Assembly: GCA_016201275.1 (NCBI GenBank)
Contig: JACQDB010000024.1
Coordinates: forward strand, 1 to 64,000
Direction of reading: 5' to 3'
Length of the DNA: 64,000 bases
Source: Acidobacteriota bacterium
GTDB lineage: Bacteria > Acidobacteriota > Blastocatellia > UBA7656
The notes under the pieces: generated by a model
Databases searched by the model: none
The model's input: only the letters and a program-made list of their open reading frames with translations
Told to the model about the DNA's origin: nothing
Position numbers and translations under genes: made by a program
Part shown: in pieces, positions 21,538 to 32,163 of the stretch
How positions within the stretch are numbered: the stretch's first letter is position 1
How the letters are laid out: every line of letters begins with the position of its first letter

Positions 21538-22341
21538 ATGTTGTCGGAGCATTCTGTGGTTATGGAAAGAGCAGAGGCCGTCGCCTTCCGCCCTCCGCTT
21601 CCGGCAATTGAAATCCGCGAAGCGCAATACACCATGCGTTTCGCGCAAAGCCTTGACGAACTCGACGCGGTTTTCAAACTCCGCTTCGAGATTTTTAATC
21701 TTGAACTCGCCGAAGGTTTGGACGAATCGTTTCACACAGGCCGCGACCATGACGAATTCGACGCCACTTGTCATCACCTGATTATCATCGAAACGGCGAC
21801 TGGCAACATCGTCGGCACTTACCGCTTGCAGACTATGGAGACCGCAACACGCGGATTTTATTCGGCAGGCGAATTTGATTTGTCGCATCTGCCGGGCGAA
21901 GTTCTGGCACAAAGCGTAGAGTTGGGGCGCGCCTGTATCGCCTCGGCGCATCGTTCGCCGCAGGTGCTGTTTCTATTGTGGAAAGGCTTGGCGGCTTACC
22001 TGTTGCACACAGGCAAACGCTATCTGTTCGGCTGTTGTTCGCTGACCAGTCAAGACGCCAGCGAGGGCAAAGCGGTATTGAATTTATTGGAGCAGGGCGG
22101 ACATATGCACGACACTTTTTCGGTGCCGCCGCAAAAAGCCTGCGAATGTTTCGCGCCGGATTTTCAAGCGGACGCAGCCGTAGCGACGACGATTCCGAAA
22201 CTGTTCAGAATTTATTTACGCTATGGCGCGAAGGTCTGCGGCAGACCAGCGATTGACCACAGGTTTAAGACCATAGACTTTTTTGTTATCTTCGATCTTA
22301 CGACACTCGATGTTTTGAGCCGCGTGTTCTTTGGTTTGTAA
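21538..22341 (+). CDS. olsB: Ornithine acyltransferase OlsB-like (GNAT fold)
   Basis: A 267-residue acyl-ACP-dependent acyltransferase of the Acetyltransf_5/hemolysin group. It has YTMRFAQSLDELDAVFKLRF, EFDATCHHLIII, IVGTYRLQT, AQSVELGRACI and YLFGCCSLTS segments. The family transfers a 3-hydroxyacyl chain to ornithine, giving lyso-ornithine lipid. The next gene, 12 bp downstream, is a PlsC-type acyltransferase that would add the second chain, so the pair looks like an ornithine-lipid operon. AAGGAGG precedes the ATG. Ornithine is the expected acceptor; another amino acid is possible. Confidence 0.8.
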   Translation: MLSEHSVVMERAEAVAFRPPLPAIEIREAQYTMRFAQSLDELDAVFKLRFEIFNLELAEGLDESFHTGRDHDEFDATCHHLIIIETATGNIVGTYRLQTMETATRGFYSAGEFDLSHLPGEVLAQSVELGRACIASAHRSPQVLFLLWKGLAAYLLHTGKRYLFGCCSLTSQDASEGKAVLNLLEQGGHMHDTFSVPPQKACECFAPDFQADAAVATTIPKLFRIYLRYGAKVCGRPAIDHRFKTIDFFVIFDLTTLDVLSRVFFGL

Positions 22342-22352
22342 CTGACTCGATC

Positions 22353-23150
22353 ATGAAGAAACCACTTCGCCTTATCCGCCGCTTATGCGCGGTCACCTTG
22401 GTGACCGGCGGTTTGTATGCGCTATGGCTTATCGGGCTGCCGTTGGTGTTGGCCTTTGCGCCTTTGAAATCCGCCTGGCGCAATTGGATTTTCCGCCATT
22501 GGGCTAAAGGCATGGCGTGGGCGATTAATCTGCACATCACGTTTGCAGGCGTGCCGCCCACCGCACCGTTTTATCTGGTCTCGAATCATTTGAGTTATGT
22601 TGACATCTTCGCTTTCGCTGCACACCTGGATTGCGTCTTCGTCTCCAAAAGCGAGATCAAAGATTGGCCGCTCATCGGTCTGTTGTGCCGCAGCATGGAT
22701 ACCATTTTTATAGACCGTGAGCGCCGCACCGATATTCCCCGCGTCATTCGATTAATCGAAAAAGCCTGGAAGAAAAAACAGGGAGTCATCATTTTTCCCG
22801 AAGGCACCAGTTCAAAAGGCGCAGAGGTTTTGCCCTTCAAAGCTGCGCTGCTTGAACCTGCCGTAAAAGCTGCCTTGCCGGTGTCCTATGCCAGCATCAC
22901 TTATCAAACCGCGCCTGCCGATACCCCTGCTTACCTGTCGGTCTGTTGGTGGGGCAAGATGACGTTTATGCCGCACGCCTTCGATCTGTTTCGTCTGTCG
23001 CAGATTGACGCGAAGATCGTCTTCGGTTCGTCAACTTTTCTGGAAGCGGATCGCAAAATCTTAGCGCAAAAATTGCATCGCGCAATTGCCGCGCAATTCA
23101 CGCCCGTCACCCTTGCGGAGGAACCATGCCAGGCCGCGACCGCGCCATGA
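22353..23150 (+). CDS. olsA: Lyso-ornithine lipid acyltransferase OlsA-like (PlsC family)
   Basis: A 265-residue membrane-bound 1-acylglycerol-3-phosphate-type acyltransferase. The catalytic HX4D motif is NHLSYVD (H79, D84). The acceptor motif FPEGTSSKG lies near 150 and a hydrophobic anchor at about 10-35. In this position it should O-acylate the lyso-ornithine lipid made by the gene before it in the inner membrane. Its end overlaps the next gene by 25 bp, indicating one operon and probable translational coupling. Confidence 0.8.
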   Translation: MKKPLRLIRRLCAVTLVTGGLYALWLIGLPLVLAFAPLKSAWRNWIFRHWAKGMAWAINLHITFAGVPPTAPFYLVSNHLSYVDIFAFAAHLDCVFVSKSEIKDWPLIGLLCRSMDTIFIDRERRTDIPRVIRLIEKAWKKKQGVIIFPEGTSSKGAEVLPFKAALLEPAVKAALPVSYASITYQTAPADTPAYLSVCWWGKMTFMPHAFDLFRLSQIDAKIVFGSSTFLEADRKILAQKLHRAIAAQFTPVTLAEEPCQAATAP

Positions 23151-23641
23151 TGGACGAGGCGATTGCCGTATTAAAACAGGGGCGCGATTTGCTTGAGCAA
23201 ATTTCCGACGAGGTGTTTTCGCAGACCTTACCGCCGATCTTTGCTGCGACGATTGGCAGTCATCTGCGTCATTGCCTCGATTTTTACGGCTGCTTTTTGC
23301 AAGGCTTGGCCGTGCGCCGCATTGATTATAACCAACGCGAACGCGACCTCTTGATTGAAACCGACCGTCGTGCGGCGCTTGCGAAAATGGCTGCTCTCAT
23401 CGAACAGTTGAAGGAATTGAGCCTCCCTGACGATTCCGTAACCGTGTTCGTGCGCTTGGAAGATGCGACCAGCAATCAAATATGGAGCCGCTCATCCATA
23501 GCCCGCGAGTGGCAATCTTTGCAGAGCCACACCATTCATCATTATGCGCTCATCGCCGTGTTGTTGCGCCTGCAAGGGATTGAACCGGGAGCCGCGTTTG
23601 GCGTTTCAACTTCCACGCTGCGACATCGGAGAGTCGTCTAG
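23126..23641 (+). CDS. DinB-like metal-binding four-helix protein
   Basis: A 171-residue helical protein. IGSHLRHCLDFYGCFLQGL and HTIHHYALIAVLLRLQG carry the spaced histidines that bind a divalent metal in DinB/YfiT-type folds. Members are thiol-S-transferases or enzymes of unknown role. It is translated within the last codons of olsA, so it belongs to the ornithine-lipid operon. A role in lipid modification is a guess from position only. Confidence 0.7.
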   Translation: MPGRDRAMMDEAIAVLKQGRDLLEQISDEVFSQTLPPIFAATIGSHLRHCLDFYGCFLQGLAVRRIDYNQRERDLLIETDRRAALAKMAALIEQLKELSLPDDSVTVFVRLEDATSNQIWSRSSIAREWQSLQSHTIHHYALIAVLLRLQGIEPGAAFGVSTSTLRHRRVV

Positions 23642-23720: not shown

Positions 23721-24617
23721 TTGGCAAAGCAATCACCCTCAAAGTCGTTTGCAAATTATAAAGCGGAGGCGCACAACTGGATTACGCTCACAACCGGGGA
23801 TTACTATCCAGATATACTGTCGGACGCTTGCGAACTTTACAGACCCGTACTGGTAATGTTCGGTCAGTTATTAAAGTCTTCGGAGTCTTCGCAGCGTCTT
23901 TTTTTACAGATCAATGAAGCTCCTGATGGCTGGATGCGTGTGCAACTCGCCAGAGTTTTCCGCAAATATGTCAGCCCCTCAACCCCTGTTGAAATGTTAA
24001 AGAGAAAAGCAAAAGCGCGAGAAATCATTGAACGCTTTGGCGCAGAATTCAGACCTATCACACAAGTTCAAGCCGCTTTTACCACGCGACCTATCCCGGA
24101 TGAAGCGTTGTGCGCGGTATTGTGGGAGTACAAAGATCGCGGCAAGAAAGGCTATGATTTAACGGAACGGTTCTTTGCAATGTTTCGCTCACAGTTCCCT
24201 CATTTGATATTGAAAGGACCGGAACGGGCAGGCAGAGATATTTTCATGGGGAATGTTTTTGAAGGTTATCCTAATCCAACACGACCGGTTGATTTTGTCA
24301 TTTATCGAAAAGACGAGAACGAAGTTTTAGCCATTGGGTTGGCTAGATATGATTCGGATAGAGGTGGTTCGCAGGAAGATGACCGAACGGGTCAATACCG
24401 AAGCGCGATTGATGAGATTCTAAAGTATGCGCGCAAACACAATCTGAAAACAAAGATTATCTTCCTAAATGATGGACCAGGCTTGCTGCTTGGTTCTATG
24501 TGGAATGACTATGCAAAACTTGAAGCAAGCGCGAAGAGCAAAGTTCTCGTTCTAACTTTGAGAATGATTCCCGAACGTCTAACATCTGAATGGCTTCAAA
24601 GTGGAGGCAATAAATAA
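23721..24617 (+). CDS. Candidate type II restriction endonuclease (second system)
   Basis: A 298-residue protein starting at TTG after AGGAAG and abutting the methyltransferase gene (stop 24617, ATG 24618). The likely nuclease core is RPVDFVIYRKDENEVLAIGL (D191, E201), followed by the very polar block YDSDRGGSQEDDRTGQYR (210-227). The usual ExK lysine is not obvious, so the catalytic set is atypical. The first half is helical with many basic residues. The exact family and site are unknown; the gene pair is the main support. Confidence 0.65.
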   Translation: MAKQSPSKSFANYKAEAHNWITLTTGDYYPDILSDACELYRPVLVMFGQLLKSSESSQRLFLQINEAPDGWMRVQLARVFRKYVSPSTPVEMLKRKAKAREIIERFGAEFRPITQVQAAFTTRPIPDEALCAVLWEYKDRGKKGYDLTERFFAMFRSQFPHLILKGPERAGRDIFMGNVFEGYPNPTRPVDFVIYRKDENEVLAIGLARYDSDRGGSQEDDRTGQYRSAIDEILKYARKHNLKTKIIFLNDGPGLLLGSMWNDYAKLEASAKSKVLVLTLRMIPERLTSEWLQSGGNK

Positions 24618-25910
24618 ATGGCTGCCGGAGTATCTAAAACACAATGGAACGGCGATGTTTCTTTGACAGAGACCGCACAAATTTCTTCTGAGATTTCGCT
24701 TTCTTATCTCGGAAAGCGCGATGAAAAAACCATACTGGCAACTGCACCAACCAACCTGAAATTGTTATGGCAAGGCGCAAGCGACGCTAATCGTCTTTAC
24801 TATGGGGATAATCTGCCCATCTTAGCTTCCCTGCTAAACGATACGGCTATTCAAGGCAAAGTGCGGCTCATTTATATTGATCCGCCTTACGCAACCAAGA
24901 GCGTGTTTCAATCGCGCTCTCAGGAAGACGCTTATTGCGATCTGCGTTCTGGCTCTCACTACCTTGAATTCATGCGGGAAAGACTGATTTTTCTAAGAGA
25001 ACTATTGGCAGCAGATGGCTCGATCTATGTACATCTCGATGAAAACATGGCGTTTCATATAAAAGTCATCATGGATGAAATTTTTGGCAAGACAAATTTC
25101 CGCAACTGGATTACCCGAAAAAAGTGCAACCCGAAAAACTATACAAGGAAAACCTACGGCAATATCGCTGACTACATTCTCTTTTACTCAAAGTCAGATA
25201 ATTACGTTTGGCAGCGGGCGCTGGAAAAATGGACCAATGAACGCGCCGAGAAAGAATATACCTACGTCGAAGAACAGACGGGCAGGAGATACAAAAAAGT
25301 GCCTATTCATGCGCCCGGCACCAGAAATGGCGAGACCGGGAAAACTTGGCGAGGAATGTCTCCGCCGCCGGGAAAGCATTGGCAGTTCATGCCGAAAACT
25401 TTGGACGAGATGGATGCGCGCGGCGAAATCTATTGGTCTGCAAATGGCAATCCTCGAAGGAAGATTTATTTGGATGACAGTGCTGGAGTGCCGATCCAAG
25501 ACATCTGGCTGAATTTCCGCGACGCTCACAATCAAAATATAAAAATCACTGGCTATCCAACAGAAAAAAATCCCGACTTAATCGCTCGCATCATTGAAGC
25601 ATCTTCAAATTCTGAAGACCTAGTGCTGGATTGTTTTTCCGGCTCCGGCACGACGCTTGAAGTCGCCTCAAACTTAAATCGCAACTGGATAGGCGTAGAC
25701 AATAGCCCCGAAGCCATAGCCACCACGCTACAGCGCTTTGCCAAAGGCACAAAAGCCATGGGGGATTTTGTCAGCGCTCGTCTCAATAAGCAGCTTAAAG
25801 AAGCGCCGTTGCCGTTGTTCAAACTAAATAATTTTTCTCTCTATGCGACGGAAGATTATGCTGAAGAATTGCATACTGTGCTTACAGAATGGCAAGGGAG
25901 GAATCGGTAA
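24618..25910 (+). CDS. Site-specific DNA methyltransferase (beta type, N4/N6)
   Basis: A 430-residue methyltransferase. YGDNLPIL precedes catalytic DPPY (88-91), then HLDENMAFHIKVIMDEIFG; the AdoMet site DCFSGSGTTLEVA comes late (about 345), giving the beta order. TEKNPDLIARIIEASS replaces the common HPTQKP-type lead-in. It is longer than minimal enzymes, with an insertion (about 170-290) likely to be the target-recognition region. GGAGG lies before the ATG. Together with the preceding gene it forms a second type II restriction-modification pair. The next gene starts directly after its stop (TAA then ATG), so the tri-domain protein may be co-transcribed. Confidence 0.85.
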   Translation: MAAGVSKTQWNGDVSLTETAQISSEISLSYLGKRDEKTILATAPTNLKLLWQGASDANRLYYGDNLPILASLLNDTAIQGKVRLIYIDPPYATKSVFQSRSQEDAYCDLRSGSHYLEFMRERLIFLRELLAADGSIYVHLDENMAFHIKVIMDEIFGKTNFRNWITRKKCNPKNYTRKTYGNIADYILFYSKSDNYVWQRALEKWTNERAEKEYTYVEEQTGRRYKKVPIHAPGTRNGETGKTWRGMSPPPGKHWQFMPKTLDEMDARGEIYWSANGNPRRKIYLDDSAGVPIQDIWLNFRDAHNQNIKITGYPTEKNPDLIARIIEASSNSEDLVLDCFSGSGTTLEVASNLNRNWIGVDNSPEAIATTLQRFAKGTKAMGDFVSARLNKQLKEAPLPLFKLNNFSLYATEDYAEELHTVLTEWQGRNR

Positions 25911-28529
25911 ATGTCTGATCGCCAAACCTGGCGATGGCGTCTAGTCACCTTCTATATTGTCCTGCTTCTGGCTTCGCATCTCATCCGAGCTTTGCAAAAA
26001 GAGAATCCCGTATCAATACAGAGCAGCACCATTGACGTGCAAGCCTTCGCTGGGGACAAGCCAATTGATCAGACCGTGCGCCTCGCCTATCGGGAATTTA
26101 TTGACGATTCATCAACGCAGGCATTAACGACAAACGAAGACCCGCGCCCGGTCATCGTCTTGCTGCACGGCAGTCCGAGCAATGCCAGAGATTTCAACTC
26201 GCTGGCTCCTTATCTAGCGCAACACTATCGCGTCATTCGCCCAGACTTACCAGGCTTTGGCGATTCCTCGCATCAGGTGCCGGATTATTCGCTGCGCGCT
26301 CACGCCCATTATATTCTCGCCCTGCTCGATAAATTACACATCAAACGCGCTCACATTCTGGGCTTCAGCATGGGCGGCGGCGTGGCGCTTAACATCGCCG
26401 ACCTTGCGCCTGAACGCACGGCCTCCCTCATCATGCTTTCCGCCATAGGCGTGCAGGAGATGGAATTGCTCGGCGATTATCATCTCAATCACGCGGTGCA
26501 TGGCTTGCAGCTCGCGGGGCTTTGGACCTTGCGCGAACTCACGCCGCACTTCGGTTATCTCGACAAGGCGGCGCTGAATGTTTCCTATGGGCGCAATTTT
26601 TATGATTCCGATCAGCGCCCTTTGCGCGACATCCTGTCGCGTTACCCCTCGCCTATGCTGATTCTGCACGGCAAAAAAGATGTGCTGGTTCCAGTCGAAG
26701 CCGCCCTCGAACATCATCGCTTAGTGCCGCAAAGCGAGTTGCAAATCTTTCCCGAAGAAAATCATTTCATGGTTTTTACCAAAGGCGAGAGGCTTGCCGA
26801 GTTCATCATTCCGTTTCTTGATAAAGTCGAACAAGGCACGGCGACGACGCGCCAGACCGCTTCACGCGAACGCCTTGAATATGCCGCGCAACCCTTCGAT
26901 CCCGCCCACCTGCCGAAAGCCAAAGGCGTCGCTTTATTGATATTGATTTTATTGCTGGCGGCGGCAACCCTGGTGAGCGAAGACCTCACCTGCATCAGCG
27001 CCGGTTTACTGGTCGCGCAAGGTCGCATGAATTTTCTGGCAGCGGCCTTCGCCTGTTTCGTAGGCATCTTTATAGGCGATGTGTTGCTCTTTCTGGCAGG
27101 CCGTTATTTCGGGCGCGCCGCTTTGCATCACGCGCCGCTCAAATGGTTCATCAGAGCCAAAGAGGTCGAGCGCAGTTCGCGCTGGTTCAATCGCAACGGC
27201 CTGGCGGTGATTGGTACGAGTCGTTTCATTCCCGGCGCACGCCTGCCTACATATTTCGCGGCGGGACTCTTGCACACCGATTTTTGGTGGTTCTGTTTGT
27301 ACTTCGTGTTGGCCGGAGTCGTGTGGTCGCCTTTATTGATAGGGCTTTCGACGTGGTTGGGCGCGGAGGCTTTGAAGTCTGCGCTGATCTCGAATCAAAC
27401 TTCGTTCCTGAAAATTCTAGGCTTCGGCCTGCTCGCCTTGATAGTGCTGCGCGTGGTGATGAAGTTGACGACCTATCGCGGGCGACGATTGCTGCTGGCT
27501 TTCTGGAAACGCAAGGTCAAGTGGGAATTCTGGTCGCCGTTATTTTTTTACCCGCCAGTAATTTTCTACGTGCTGTTTCTGATGATAAAGCACCGCAGCA
27601 TGACGTTGTTCACGGCGGCCAACCCGGCGATTATGAGCGGCGGTTTCATTGGCGAATCGAAAGCCGAAATCTTGCACGGCCTTGCCGCTGCCGACGGCTT
27701 CATAGCGCGTTCAGCGCTCATCAAAGCAACGCTTGATGCCGATGAACGATTGGCGCAGGCCGCAAAATTCATGCGCGAAAATGCTTACGACTTTCCTGTG
27801 GTATTGAAACCCGATTTAGGGCAACGCGGCAGCGGCGTGTTGGTGGCGCGCTCTGACGAAGCCTTGCGTGCGTATCTGCAACAGGCCAGCGGCGACACCA
27901 TTATTCAAGAGTACGTCGCCGGTGTAGAGTTCGGGGTGTTTTATTATCGCTACCCGGAAAGCGAGCGCGGCAAAATTTTTGCCATCACCGAAAAGCGTTT
28001 TCCTGTGGTCAAGGGCGATGGCAAAAGCACGCTGGAGCGTTTGATTTTGCAGGACGAACGCGCCGTCTGCATGGCGAAATTTTATTGCGAGCAACACACC
28101 GACAGACTCGATGAAGTGCTGAGTGAAGGCGAACAGCGACAGCTAGTCGAATTGGGAACGCATTGTCGAGGGGCGATTTTTTTAGACGGCGCATGGGCAA
28201 TCACCGCTGAGTTGGAAGCCGCGATTGACCGCGTGAGCAAACACTTCGAGGGCTTTTATTTCGGGCGTTACGACATACGCGCCGCTTCGATTGAAGAGTT
28301 CCAACGCGGCGAGAATTTCAAAGTCATCGAATTGAACGGCGTGACTTCGGAAGCGACAAACATCTACGACCCGAAGAATAGTTTATTTGCGGCTTATCGC
28401 GTCTTGTTCAAACAGTGGCGCATGGCTTTCGAGATCGGCGCGCAAAATCGCCAGCGCGGCGCAACGCCTTCCAGCGTGCGCGAGTTAATCAAACTCTTGT
28501 GGGAATTTCGCCAACGCAATGCGAAATAG
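25911..28529 (+). CDS. Alpha/beta hydrolase + DedA membrane + ATP-grasp fusion
   Basis: An 872-residue protein with three parts. After one N-terminal helix comes an alpha/beta hydrolase (about 75-305: LLHGSPSN oxyanion region, nucleophile S153 in GFSMGGG, D257, H285). Next is a DedA/VTT membrane domain (about 335-520, SRFIPGARLPTYFAAG). Last is an ATP-grasp domain (about 570-840: K633 in VVLKPDLGQRGSG, metal site VIELNGVTSEATN at 805-817). All three look catalytically complete. DedA proteins move undecaprenyl phosphate or other lipids, and ATP-grasp enzymes ligate carboxylates to amines, so an envelope or lipid-linked product is plausible; this is inference. It starts right after the methyltransferase stop, with no gap. 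The substrate is unknown. Confidence 0.85.
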   Translation: MSDRQTWRWRLVTFYIVLLLASHLIRALQKENPVSIQSSTIDVQAFAGDKPIDQTVRLAYREFIDDSSTQALTTNEDPRPVIVLLHGSPSNARDFNSLAPYLAQHYRVIRPDLPGFGDSSHQVPDYSLRAHAHYILALLDKLHIKRAHILGFSMGGGVALNIADLAPERTASLIMLSAIGVQEMELLGDYHLNHAVHGLQLAGLWTLRELTPHFGYLDKAALNVSYGRNFYDSDQRPLRDILSRYPSPMLILHGKKDVLVPVEAALEHHRLVPQSELQIFPEENHFMVFTKGERLAEFIIPFLDKVEQGTATTRQTASRERLEYAAQPFDPAHLPKAKGVALLILILLLAAATLVSEDLTCISAGLLVAQGRMNFLAAAFACFVGIFIGDVLLFLAGRYFGRAALHHAPLKWFIRAKEVERSSRWFNRNGLAVIGTSRFIPGARLPTYFAAGLLHTDFWWFCLYFVLAGVVWSPLLIGLSTWLGAEALKSALISNQTSFLKILGFGLLALIVLRVVMKLTTYRGRRLLLAFWKRKVKWEFWSPLFFYPPVIFYVLFLMIKHRSMTLFTAANPAIMSGGFIGESKAEILHGLAAADGFIARSALIKATLDADERLAQAAKFMRENAYDFPVVLKPDLGQRGSGVLVARSDEALRAYLQQASGDTIIQEYVAGVEFGVFYYRYPESERGKIFAITEKRFPVVKGDGKSTLERLILQDERAVCMAKFYCEQHTDRLDEVLSEGEQRQLVELGTHCRGAIFLDGAWAITAELEAAIDRVSKHFEGFYFGRYDIRAASIEEFQRGENFKVIELNGVTSEATNIYDPKNSLFAAYRVLFKQWRMAFEIGAQNRQRGATPSSVRELIKLLWEFRQRNAK

Positions 28530-28582: not shown

Positions 28583-28979
28583 TCAAGCCGATGGTCGCCG
28601 TTCAACGATATGCTGCCTGAGCCACTTGCTGAACGCCGCTCTGTCCATTTGTCCGCTTGCTACGGACAAGATGATTTGCTCCTGCTCATCAACGGACGCC
28701 TCGATTTCGTAACCGTTGAGTACGAGAAACACCTCTATAGCGGCGTGTCCCAAGCGTTTGTTCCCGTCCACAAAACAATGATTCTGGATCAATGAAGGCC
28801 CTAATGCTGAAGCTTTCTCGGCTATCGTAGGATACAGGGACTCGCCTCCAAAGCTCATCTCCGGCTGTGCCAACGTAGATTCTAAAGCACCTCTCTCCCG
28901 TAAATCTGCGCTACCCCCCGCTGCGGCTAACGATTTTTCTGTGCAAGGATAAGATTTCTTCAAGAGTCAGGTAGCGCAT
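28583..28979 (-). pseudogene. doc: Doc/Fic-type toxin, frameshifted
   Basis: Doc toxins phosphorylate EF-Tu and stop translation. The start overlaps the antitoxin stop (TGATG, 28981-28977) and reads MRYLTLEEILSLHRKIV SRSGG, then stops. Reading on in the next frame gives SADLRERGALESTLAQPEMS and the full active site HCFVDGNKR, followed by a typical C-terminus. Removing one C from the six-C run at 28914-28919 joins both into a normal protein of about 131 residues. It may be an inactivated toxin, a phase-variable tract, or a sequencing error. All Doc catalytic residues (H, F, D, N, K, R) are present downstream of the shift. Confidence 0.85.
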
Positions 28980-31676: not shown

Positions 31677-32072
31677 TTAAGAGAGCTTCGCGCCGACGAT
31701 GGGAATCTCCTGACGATGCAAGAACAGTATGCCGAGGCTACAGACAAAGACCACGCAGGCCAGTATAAACAATAGGCCGCCATCCTCTTTGACCACGATG
31801 CCGAGCTTGCTCAAGTGACTGAAAATTGCGCCGCTGATGGTTCCCAGTGCGAGGATCGCTGCATACAGTATGGTGCGCGGAATCAATAATAAAATCACGG
31901 CGATTAATTCGACGATGCCGGAGCCAATGCGCCCCCAAGGTTCCAAGCCCAAGGTCGAAAAAATGTACTTCGATTCTTCCGCGCCGGTGAACTTGAAAAA
32001 CAGGGTTTGAAACAGAATCGCCGCCACGATGATTTGCAAGGTCCACGAAATGATGGTTGATGTTTTGGTCAT
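31677..32072 (-). CDS. DoxX-like membrane protein
   Basis: A 131-residue protein with four transmembrane helices. It opens MTKTSTIISWTLQIIVAAIL; the family-typical TLFFKFTGAEESKYIF and GRIGSGIVELIAVILLLIP follow. DoxX-like proteins are inner-membrane, some linked to redox or sulfur stress; the role here is unknown. The start at 32072 follows GGCGGGGA. Flanked on both sides by ACCGAT palindromes. Confidence 0.75.
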   Translation of the reverse strand: MTKTSTIISWTLQIIVAAILFQTLFFKFTGAEESKYIFSTLGLEPWGRIGSGIVELIAVILLLIPRTILYAAILALGTISGAIFSHLSKLGIVVKEDGGLLFILACVVFVCSLGILFLHRQEIPIVGAKLS

Positions 32073-32163
32073 GATGTTTTCCCCGCCTGCTAAATCCGCC
32101 TGCATCGGTTTTTTATTCCATAATTGCCATGCGGCGTCATGTAGTTTTCAGTGACCGCGAACA

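Follow-up and report, generated by a model that had tools for sequence, protein, structure and literature searches.

A soil-bacterium fusion of an alpha/beta hydrolase, a VTT membrane domain and an ATP-grasp ligase that probably modifies, moves and trims ornithine-type lipids

An uninterrupted frame of 872 codons in the window (the whole stretch of DNA analysed, 64,000 nucleotides), with an ATG at 25911 and a stop ending at 28529, joins an alpha/beta hydrolase, a VTT/DedA membrane domain and an ATP-grasp ligase in a single chain. Because of this set of domains and its location among Ols-type genes, the soil-bacterium protein probably modifies, moves and trims ornithine-type lipids. In the reading that we favour, at slightly better than an even chance, it both tailors and traffics an acyloxyacyl aminolipid (ornithine lipid or something closely related) that the operon's OlsB and OlsA homologues would make. 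The features of the putative operon and of the fusion are as follows:

21538-22341, + strand: OlsB-like N-acyltransferase (GNAT, Acetyltransf_5), first gene of the operon (Pfam PF13444 1.4e-26; NCBIfam OlsB models; synteny)
22353-23150, + strand: OlsA-like lyso-lipid O-acyltransferase, PlsC family (NCBIfam OlsA 3.2e-40; Pfam Acyltransferase 9.9e-22)
23126-23641, + strand: DinB-family protein, conserved cluster member (Pfam DinB 4.9e-6)
23721-25910, + strand: restriction-modification pair, a 298-aa protein and a type II methyltransferase of 430 aa, not part of the machine (PADLOC MTase_II 1e-142)
25911-28529, + strand: fusion protein, 872 aa (Pfam domains, alignment of relatives)
25935-25997, + strand: N-terminal membrane anchor of the fusion, residues 9-29, with basic residues ahead (hydropathy)
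26148-26801, + strand: alpha/beta hydrolase domain, residues 80-297, triad S153-D257-H285 (Pfam, residue check, 42-protein comparison)
27000-27344, + strand: VTT/DedA domain, residues 364-478 by Pfam limits (Pfam; YqjA comparison)
27462-27665, + strand: juxtamembrane linker WEFW..FYPPV...HRS..FTAANPAI..GG..GESK, about residues 518-585 (invariant alignment columns)
27666-28526, + strand: ATP-grasp domain; K633, R786, D788, E807 and N809 invariant (alignment, profile, predicted fold)

The three-domain frame had been proposed in an earlier note on this DNA, and Pfam now bears it out, with profile and predicted fold in agreement for the ATP-grasp part; the residues picked out there (S153, D257, H285, PGARLP at 441-446, K633, E807 and N809) are all in place. 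Since the three-part chain recurs in about 40 other genomes and contigs, the fusion is not an assembly artefact, and no frame-joining error was found. The window's genome probably belongs to class Blastocatellia of the Acidobacteriota, judging by its kin and by genome shapes. Full-length relatives of 54-70% identity belong to the same family and to another family of the same class, while a shorter VTT-ATP-grasp form without the hydrolase, likewise common, is found in other families and on Gemmatimonadota and Acidobacteria contigs. At 42 of the 83 loci read the hydrolase is in frame with VTT-ATP-grasp. One genome (G076) holds two copies (L047 on contig C38 and L052 on C72), one with the fused hydrolase and one without, and TANGO2 adjoins each. 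None of the curated families searched covers the full three-domain chain, no characterised homologue or homologue of known product was found, and the viral contigs searched contained no relative. In the open-access literature searched no DedA/ATP-grasp fusion is described, as judged by titles and abstracts, and the searches returned nothing pairing ornithine lipid with DedA or a VTT domain with ATP-grasp. An anti-phage role was considered and dropped, PADLOC giving no match for the fusion. Just downstream lies a Fic/Doc-like ORF of 126 aa (28583-28963, - strand) that matches candidate phage-defence models.

Pfam delimits the hydrolase and membrane domains. Abhydrolase_1 is matched over residues 80-178 (1e-28) and Abhydrolase_6 spans 82-297; the nucleophile elbow G-x-S-x-G, read as GFSMGG with S153, places the domain in the alpha/beta hydrolase superfamily, and the triad is kept across the 42 fused hydrolases (S in 41/42, D and H in 42/42). 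VTT_dom covers residues 364-478 (1.7e-17, 64.5 bits against a gathering score of 33.9), assigning this part to the DedA/VTT family. YqjA and YghB are reported to need the charged residues E39, D51, R130 and R136 (PMC6849406); D358, just before the VTT domain, and R438 and R444 inside it match YqjA D51, R130 and R136, and E39 of E. coli YqjA has no aligned counterpart. The best NCBIfam match of the VTT domain is UptA, at 72.3 bits against an equivalog cut-off of 250, which leaves the domain outside the UptA family proper. The fusion resembles the DedA proteins UptA, PetA and YqjA/YghB in its VTT domain and the equivalents of D51, R130 and R136, and differs from them in being joined to a ligase, in scoring below the UptA cut-off and in the lack of an aligned partner for E39. 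An N-terminal basic stretch and hydrophobic helix are present in nearly all of the 42 fused proteins. The first helix has basic residues ahead of it, and the last VTT helix has eight behind it. Under the positive-inside rule these charges would set the N-terminus and the ATP-grasp on the cytoplasmic side and the membrane-anchored hydrolase on the far side, so that it is probably periplasmic. The domain arrangement and sidedness are read from hydropathy and charge, the full-chain model having a pLDDT of 48.

The C-terminal third belongs firmly to the ATP-grasp ligases, on the basis of profile, predicted fold and invariant metal/ATP ligands. Pfam recognises it weakly: the RimK-type ATP-grasp model matches residues 615-670 at 1.9e-4 and scores 21.5 bits, barely above its cut-off of 21. 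A profile built on this third retrieves PDB chains of cyanophycin and glutathione synthases (E 4.8e-8), and its predicted model (pLDDT 64) matches cyanophycin synthetase (best Foldseek E 2.4e-9) and D-Ala-D-Ala ligases. K633, D788, E807 and N809 are invariant in 15 aligned sequences, as is R786. With cyanophycin synthetase, glutathione synthase and D-Ala-D-Ala ligase the domain shares the fold, the positions of K633, E807 and N809 and a GDG-x-ST-L-x-LI motif, whereas identity in the model matches is about 12-24% and the domain here has an N-terminal membrane linker of its own and is fused to a membrane part. The nearest solved ATP-grasps join amino acids to peptide-type carboxylates. The WEFW...GESK linker also occurs in the stand-alone ATP-grasp of Salinivibrio.

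OlsB and OlsA are the two acyltransferases of ornithine-lipid synthesis, and for true OlsBA it is established that the aminolipid is made in the cytoplasm. The OlsB homologue of the window matches the NCBIfam OlsB models over nearly their full length (1.8e-36 and 3.2e-36, 126 bits, cut-offs 320/350), and the OlsA homologue scores 138 bits against a cut-off of 300; because both scores fall below the NCBIfam equivalog cut-offs, the head group may carry an amino acid other than ornithine. As OlsA is already in the operon, the fused hydrolase is not needed as a second acyltransferase. Ols-type acyltransferase genes lie near the fusion or ATP-grasp gene at many other loci as well. OlsB lies within 8 kb at 50 of 83 loci, and at most loci the fusion or ATP-grasp gene closely follows OlsA, DinB, TANGO2 or DoxX, with an exact 4-base start-stop overlap with the upstream cluster gene at 16 (ORF starts being placed mechanically).

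In the window the fusion abuts the stop of the methyltransferase without a gap (25910/25911), from which it had been suggested that it may travel with the restriction island. This suggestion fails: the fusion and OlsB-OlsA-DinB are conserved without restriction genes, and the restriction pair lies inside the operon in the window only, being absent from this position in the relatives read. In the closest relatives the fusion directly follows the DinB gene with no restriction pair at the junction, and in relative genome G002 the end of DinB overlaps the start of the fusion (locus L023, 7538-8059 and 8044-10698). Because the junction between DinB and the fusion is intact in relatives, the restriction genes are later arrivals and the gapless junction is the edge of an insertion. 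The 298-aa partner of the methyltransferase is a possible restriction enzyme.

The association with OlsB extends to whole genomes. ATP-grasp carriers make up 34 of 162 genomes in the class and 54 of 396 in the phylum. Counted without regard to kinship, the phylum comprises 47 genomes with ATP-grasp and OlsB, 7 with ATP-grasp only, 28 with OlsB only and 314 with neither; the class 32, 2, 6 and 122; and the genera of the class 15, 1, 3 and 34, in the same order. Where OlsB is not beside the ATP-grasp gene it is usually elsewhere in the genome. The excess of OlsB-only over ATP-grasp-only genomes points to a lipid whose synthesis does not require the fusion protein, as would be expected of a tailoring enzyme. 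One family in the phylum (f16) offers a natural comparison group for lipidomics: about 25 of its genomes have the OlsB homologue without ATP-grasp, and one, G183, carries the ATP-grasp fusion without that OlsB.

Beyond Acidobacteriota, where the spread is known from plasmid records and named contigs, the parts also occur as separate genes. By tblastn, plasmid records from Azospirillum, Salinivibrio, Vibrio, Photobacterium, Paracoccus, Variovorax and Komagataeibacter encode the ATP-grasp at 34-39% identity; of these, Salinivibrio, Vibrio, Photobacterium and Paracoccus have the parts as adjacent unfused genes. The Salinivibrio row reads SDR, VTT, ATP-grasp, DinB, NRDE/TANGO2. In Paracoccus, ATP-grasp, alpha/beta hydrolase and VTT genes adjoin, the hydrolase being 33% identical to a fused domain (7e-19). 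In Vibrio and Photobacterium, separate VTT and ATP-grasp genes cluster with DoxX and a homologue of OlsF, the Vibrio cluster adding a YHS protein; the OlsF matches cover almost the whole length but, at 428 and 407 bits, stay below the NCBIfam equivalog cut-off of 620. In Variovorax OlsB adjoins the ATP-grasp; near the ATP-grasp of Azospirillum, Paracoccus and Komagataeibacter no OlsB was seen. From the arrangements in Salinivibrio, Paracoccus, Vibrio and Photobacterium it follows that the unfused parts are recurrently adjacent and that the link to aminolipid synthesis spans two synthase types.

On the favoured reading, the OlsB and OlsA homologues would make the aminolipid at the cytoplasmic face, where the ATP-grasp may dock on the membrane through its WEFW...GESK linker, turn a carboxylate into an acyl-phosphate and ligate it to an amine. 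The bond formed could lie between the alpha-carboxyl of the lipid and a small amine, as in taurine-ornithine lipid, or between a small carboxylate and the free amine of the lipid. Taurine-ornithine and serine-glycine are among the head groups reported in PMC12493201, which gives such a ligation on an aminolipid a precedent in known chemistry. The VTT/DedA domain would then carry the lipid to the outer leaflet, as we infer from the DedA proteins UptA and PetA (PMC11474028), and the hydrolase, on its one-helix tether and probably periplasmic, would cleave or transfer an acyl or head-group bond of the product. The earlier proposal that the protein makes, flips and trims a lipid-linked amide compound survives in part: domains and context support a single chain that acts on a lipid through a hydrolase, a domain of a flippase family and a ligase for amide-type bonds. 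A lipid-linked carrier compound is not specifically supported; the genomic context, on which the earlier note did not draw, points instead to an OlsBA-type aminolipid. Neither the taurine-ornithine head-group enzyme nor the crossing of the inner membrane by aminolipids is given in the literature excerpts covered, and the module is one candidate gene set for both. Its home, the Acidobacteriota, is abundant and little studied.

Known systems offer partial parallels. In MprF a TM flippase domain is joined to a synthase domain that is soluble (PMC11980842), and LpiA/AcvB is an operon of a synthase and a periplasmic hydrolase (PMC13197417). By analogy, the fusion would share with MprF/LpiA and AcvB a flippase-type membrane domain, a soluble head-group-modifying synthase domain and a periplasmic hydrolase acting on the product; it differs in having an ATP-grasp in place of a tRNA-dependent transferase, VTT in place of the MprF membrane domain, and a fused hydrolase. 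The lipid of MprF is PG, whereas that associated with the fusion is an aminolipid, and no sequence relation is seen, the MprF synthase and flippase families being absent from the Pfam matches and from the 25 NCBIfam matches listed. Tentatively, and at somewhat less than an even chance, we propose a single-chain synthase-flippase-hydrolase in which the ATP-grasp equips ornithine-type lipids with an undescribed head group (an amide such as a dipeptide or a taurine-like one), VTT brings it to the outer leaflet and the hydrolase sets how much of it there is. Such a protein would parallel MprF/AcvB by convergence, and it would be widespread in Acidobacteriota and, as separate genes, in Pseudomonadota. 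The OlsBA/OlsF/OlsH-OlsI systems are similar in that OlsB and OlsA homologues head the operon and an OlsF homologue is present in Vibrio and Photobacterium, and OlsI illustrates that an alpha/beta hydrolase can serve ornithine lipid; unlike the fusion, they are without ATP-grasp and DedA protein as described in PMC12493201.

Other readings of the same domains were weighed. It is unlikely that the ATP-grasp works off the lipid, making or ligating a soluble peptide or amino-acid conjugate for subsequent acylation by OlsB, with the machine supplying an unusual head group. Although the OlsB homologue falls below the ornithine equivalog cut-offs and the nearest ATP-grasps yield soluble or polymeric amides, the ATP-grasp here is fused to a membrane domain, a hydrophobic docking linker is conserved even in stand-alone forms, and the 28 genomes holding OlsB alone indicate that OlsB is independent of the ATP-grasp. 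Aminolipid turnover or homeostasis, in which a cycle of deacylation and re-ligation is run by the ATP-grasp together with the hydrolase or, in its place, TANGO2, and VTT is mainly a scaffold or scramblase, is also rather unlikely. It would account for DinB and DoxX partners that look non-biosynthetic, and OlsI, itself an alpha/beta hydrolase, serves as O-acyltransferase for ornithine lipid (PMC12493201). Of the loci that lack the fused hydrolase, 28 of 41 have a TANGO2/NRDE gene nearby, against 9 of 42 among those that have it (raw p 2e-5), but strict alternation was rejected, both being present at 9 loci and the pattern losing significance on tree-independent pairs, so the exchange is a lead only; the VTT arginines for transport-type function are, moreover, kept.

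That the machine works on undecaprenyl phosphate or another polyprenyl carrier through a UptA-like VTT domain, with the Ols genes as bystanders, we regard as very unlikely. DedA proteins flip C55-P (abstract of PMC12893004) and UptA is the best NCBIfam match of the VTT domain, but at 72 bits far from its cut-off, the genome-wide link to OlsB is strong even where the genes lie apart, and no cell-wall or glycosyl genes are among the recurrent labelled neighbours. Very unlikely indeed is a grouping without a shared reaction, in which three lipid-related stress functions are fused for co-expression only; VTT-ATP-grasp does occur without the hydrolase and cluster membership varies, but all three active sites are conserved and the parts recur as neighbours when unfused.

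Human TANGO2 mutations cause disease, and the function of the TANGO2 family is disputed. The human protein binds acyl-CoA (PMC11867700), and a role as heme carriers has been proposed for its bacterial homologues (in a reference cited in PMC11867700). The TANGO2/NRDE genes of the present clusters nearly always start MC...NRDE, 24 of the 27 TANGO2 genomes in the class carry ATP-grasp, and the genomic context ties the family to acyl-amino-acid lipids. Loci with a TANGO2/NRDE cluster include L021, L024, L029, L030, L032, L033, L035 and L040. In one family (L031-L033, L045 and L046) a DoxX-like membrane protein stands directly before the VTT-ATP-grasp gene, and in the window a DoxX-like protein is encoded downstream of the fusion on the opposite strand (31677-32105, - strand).
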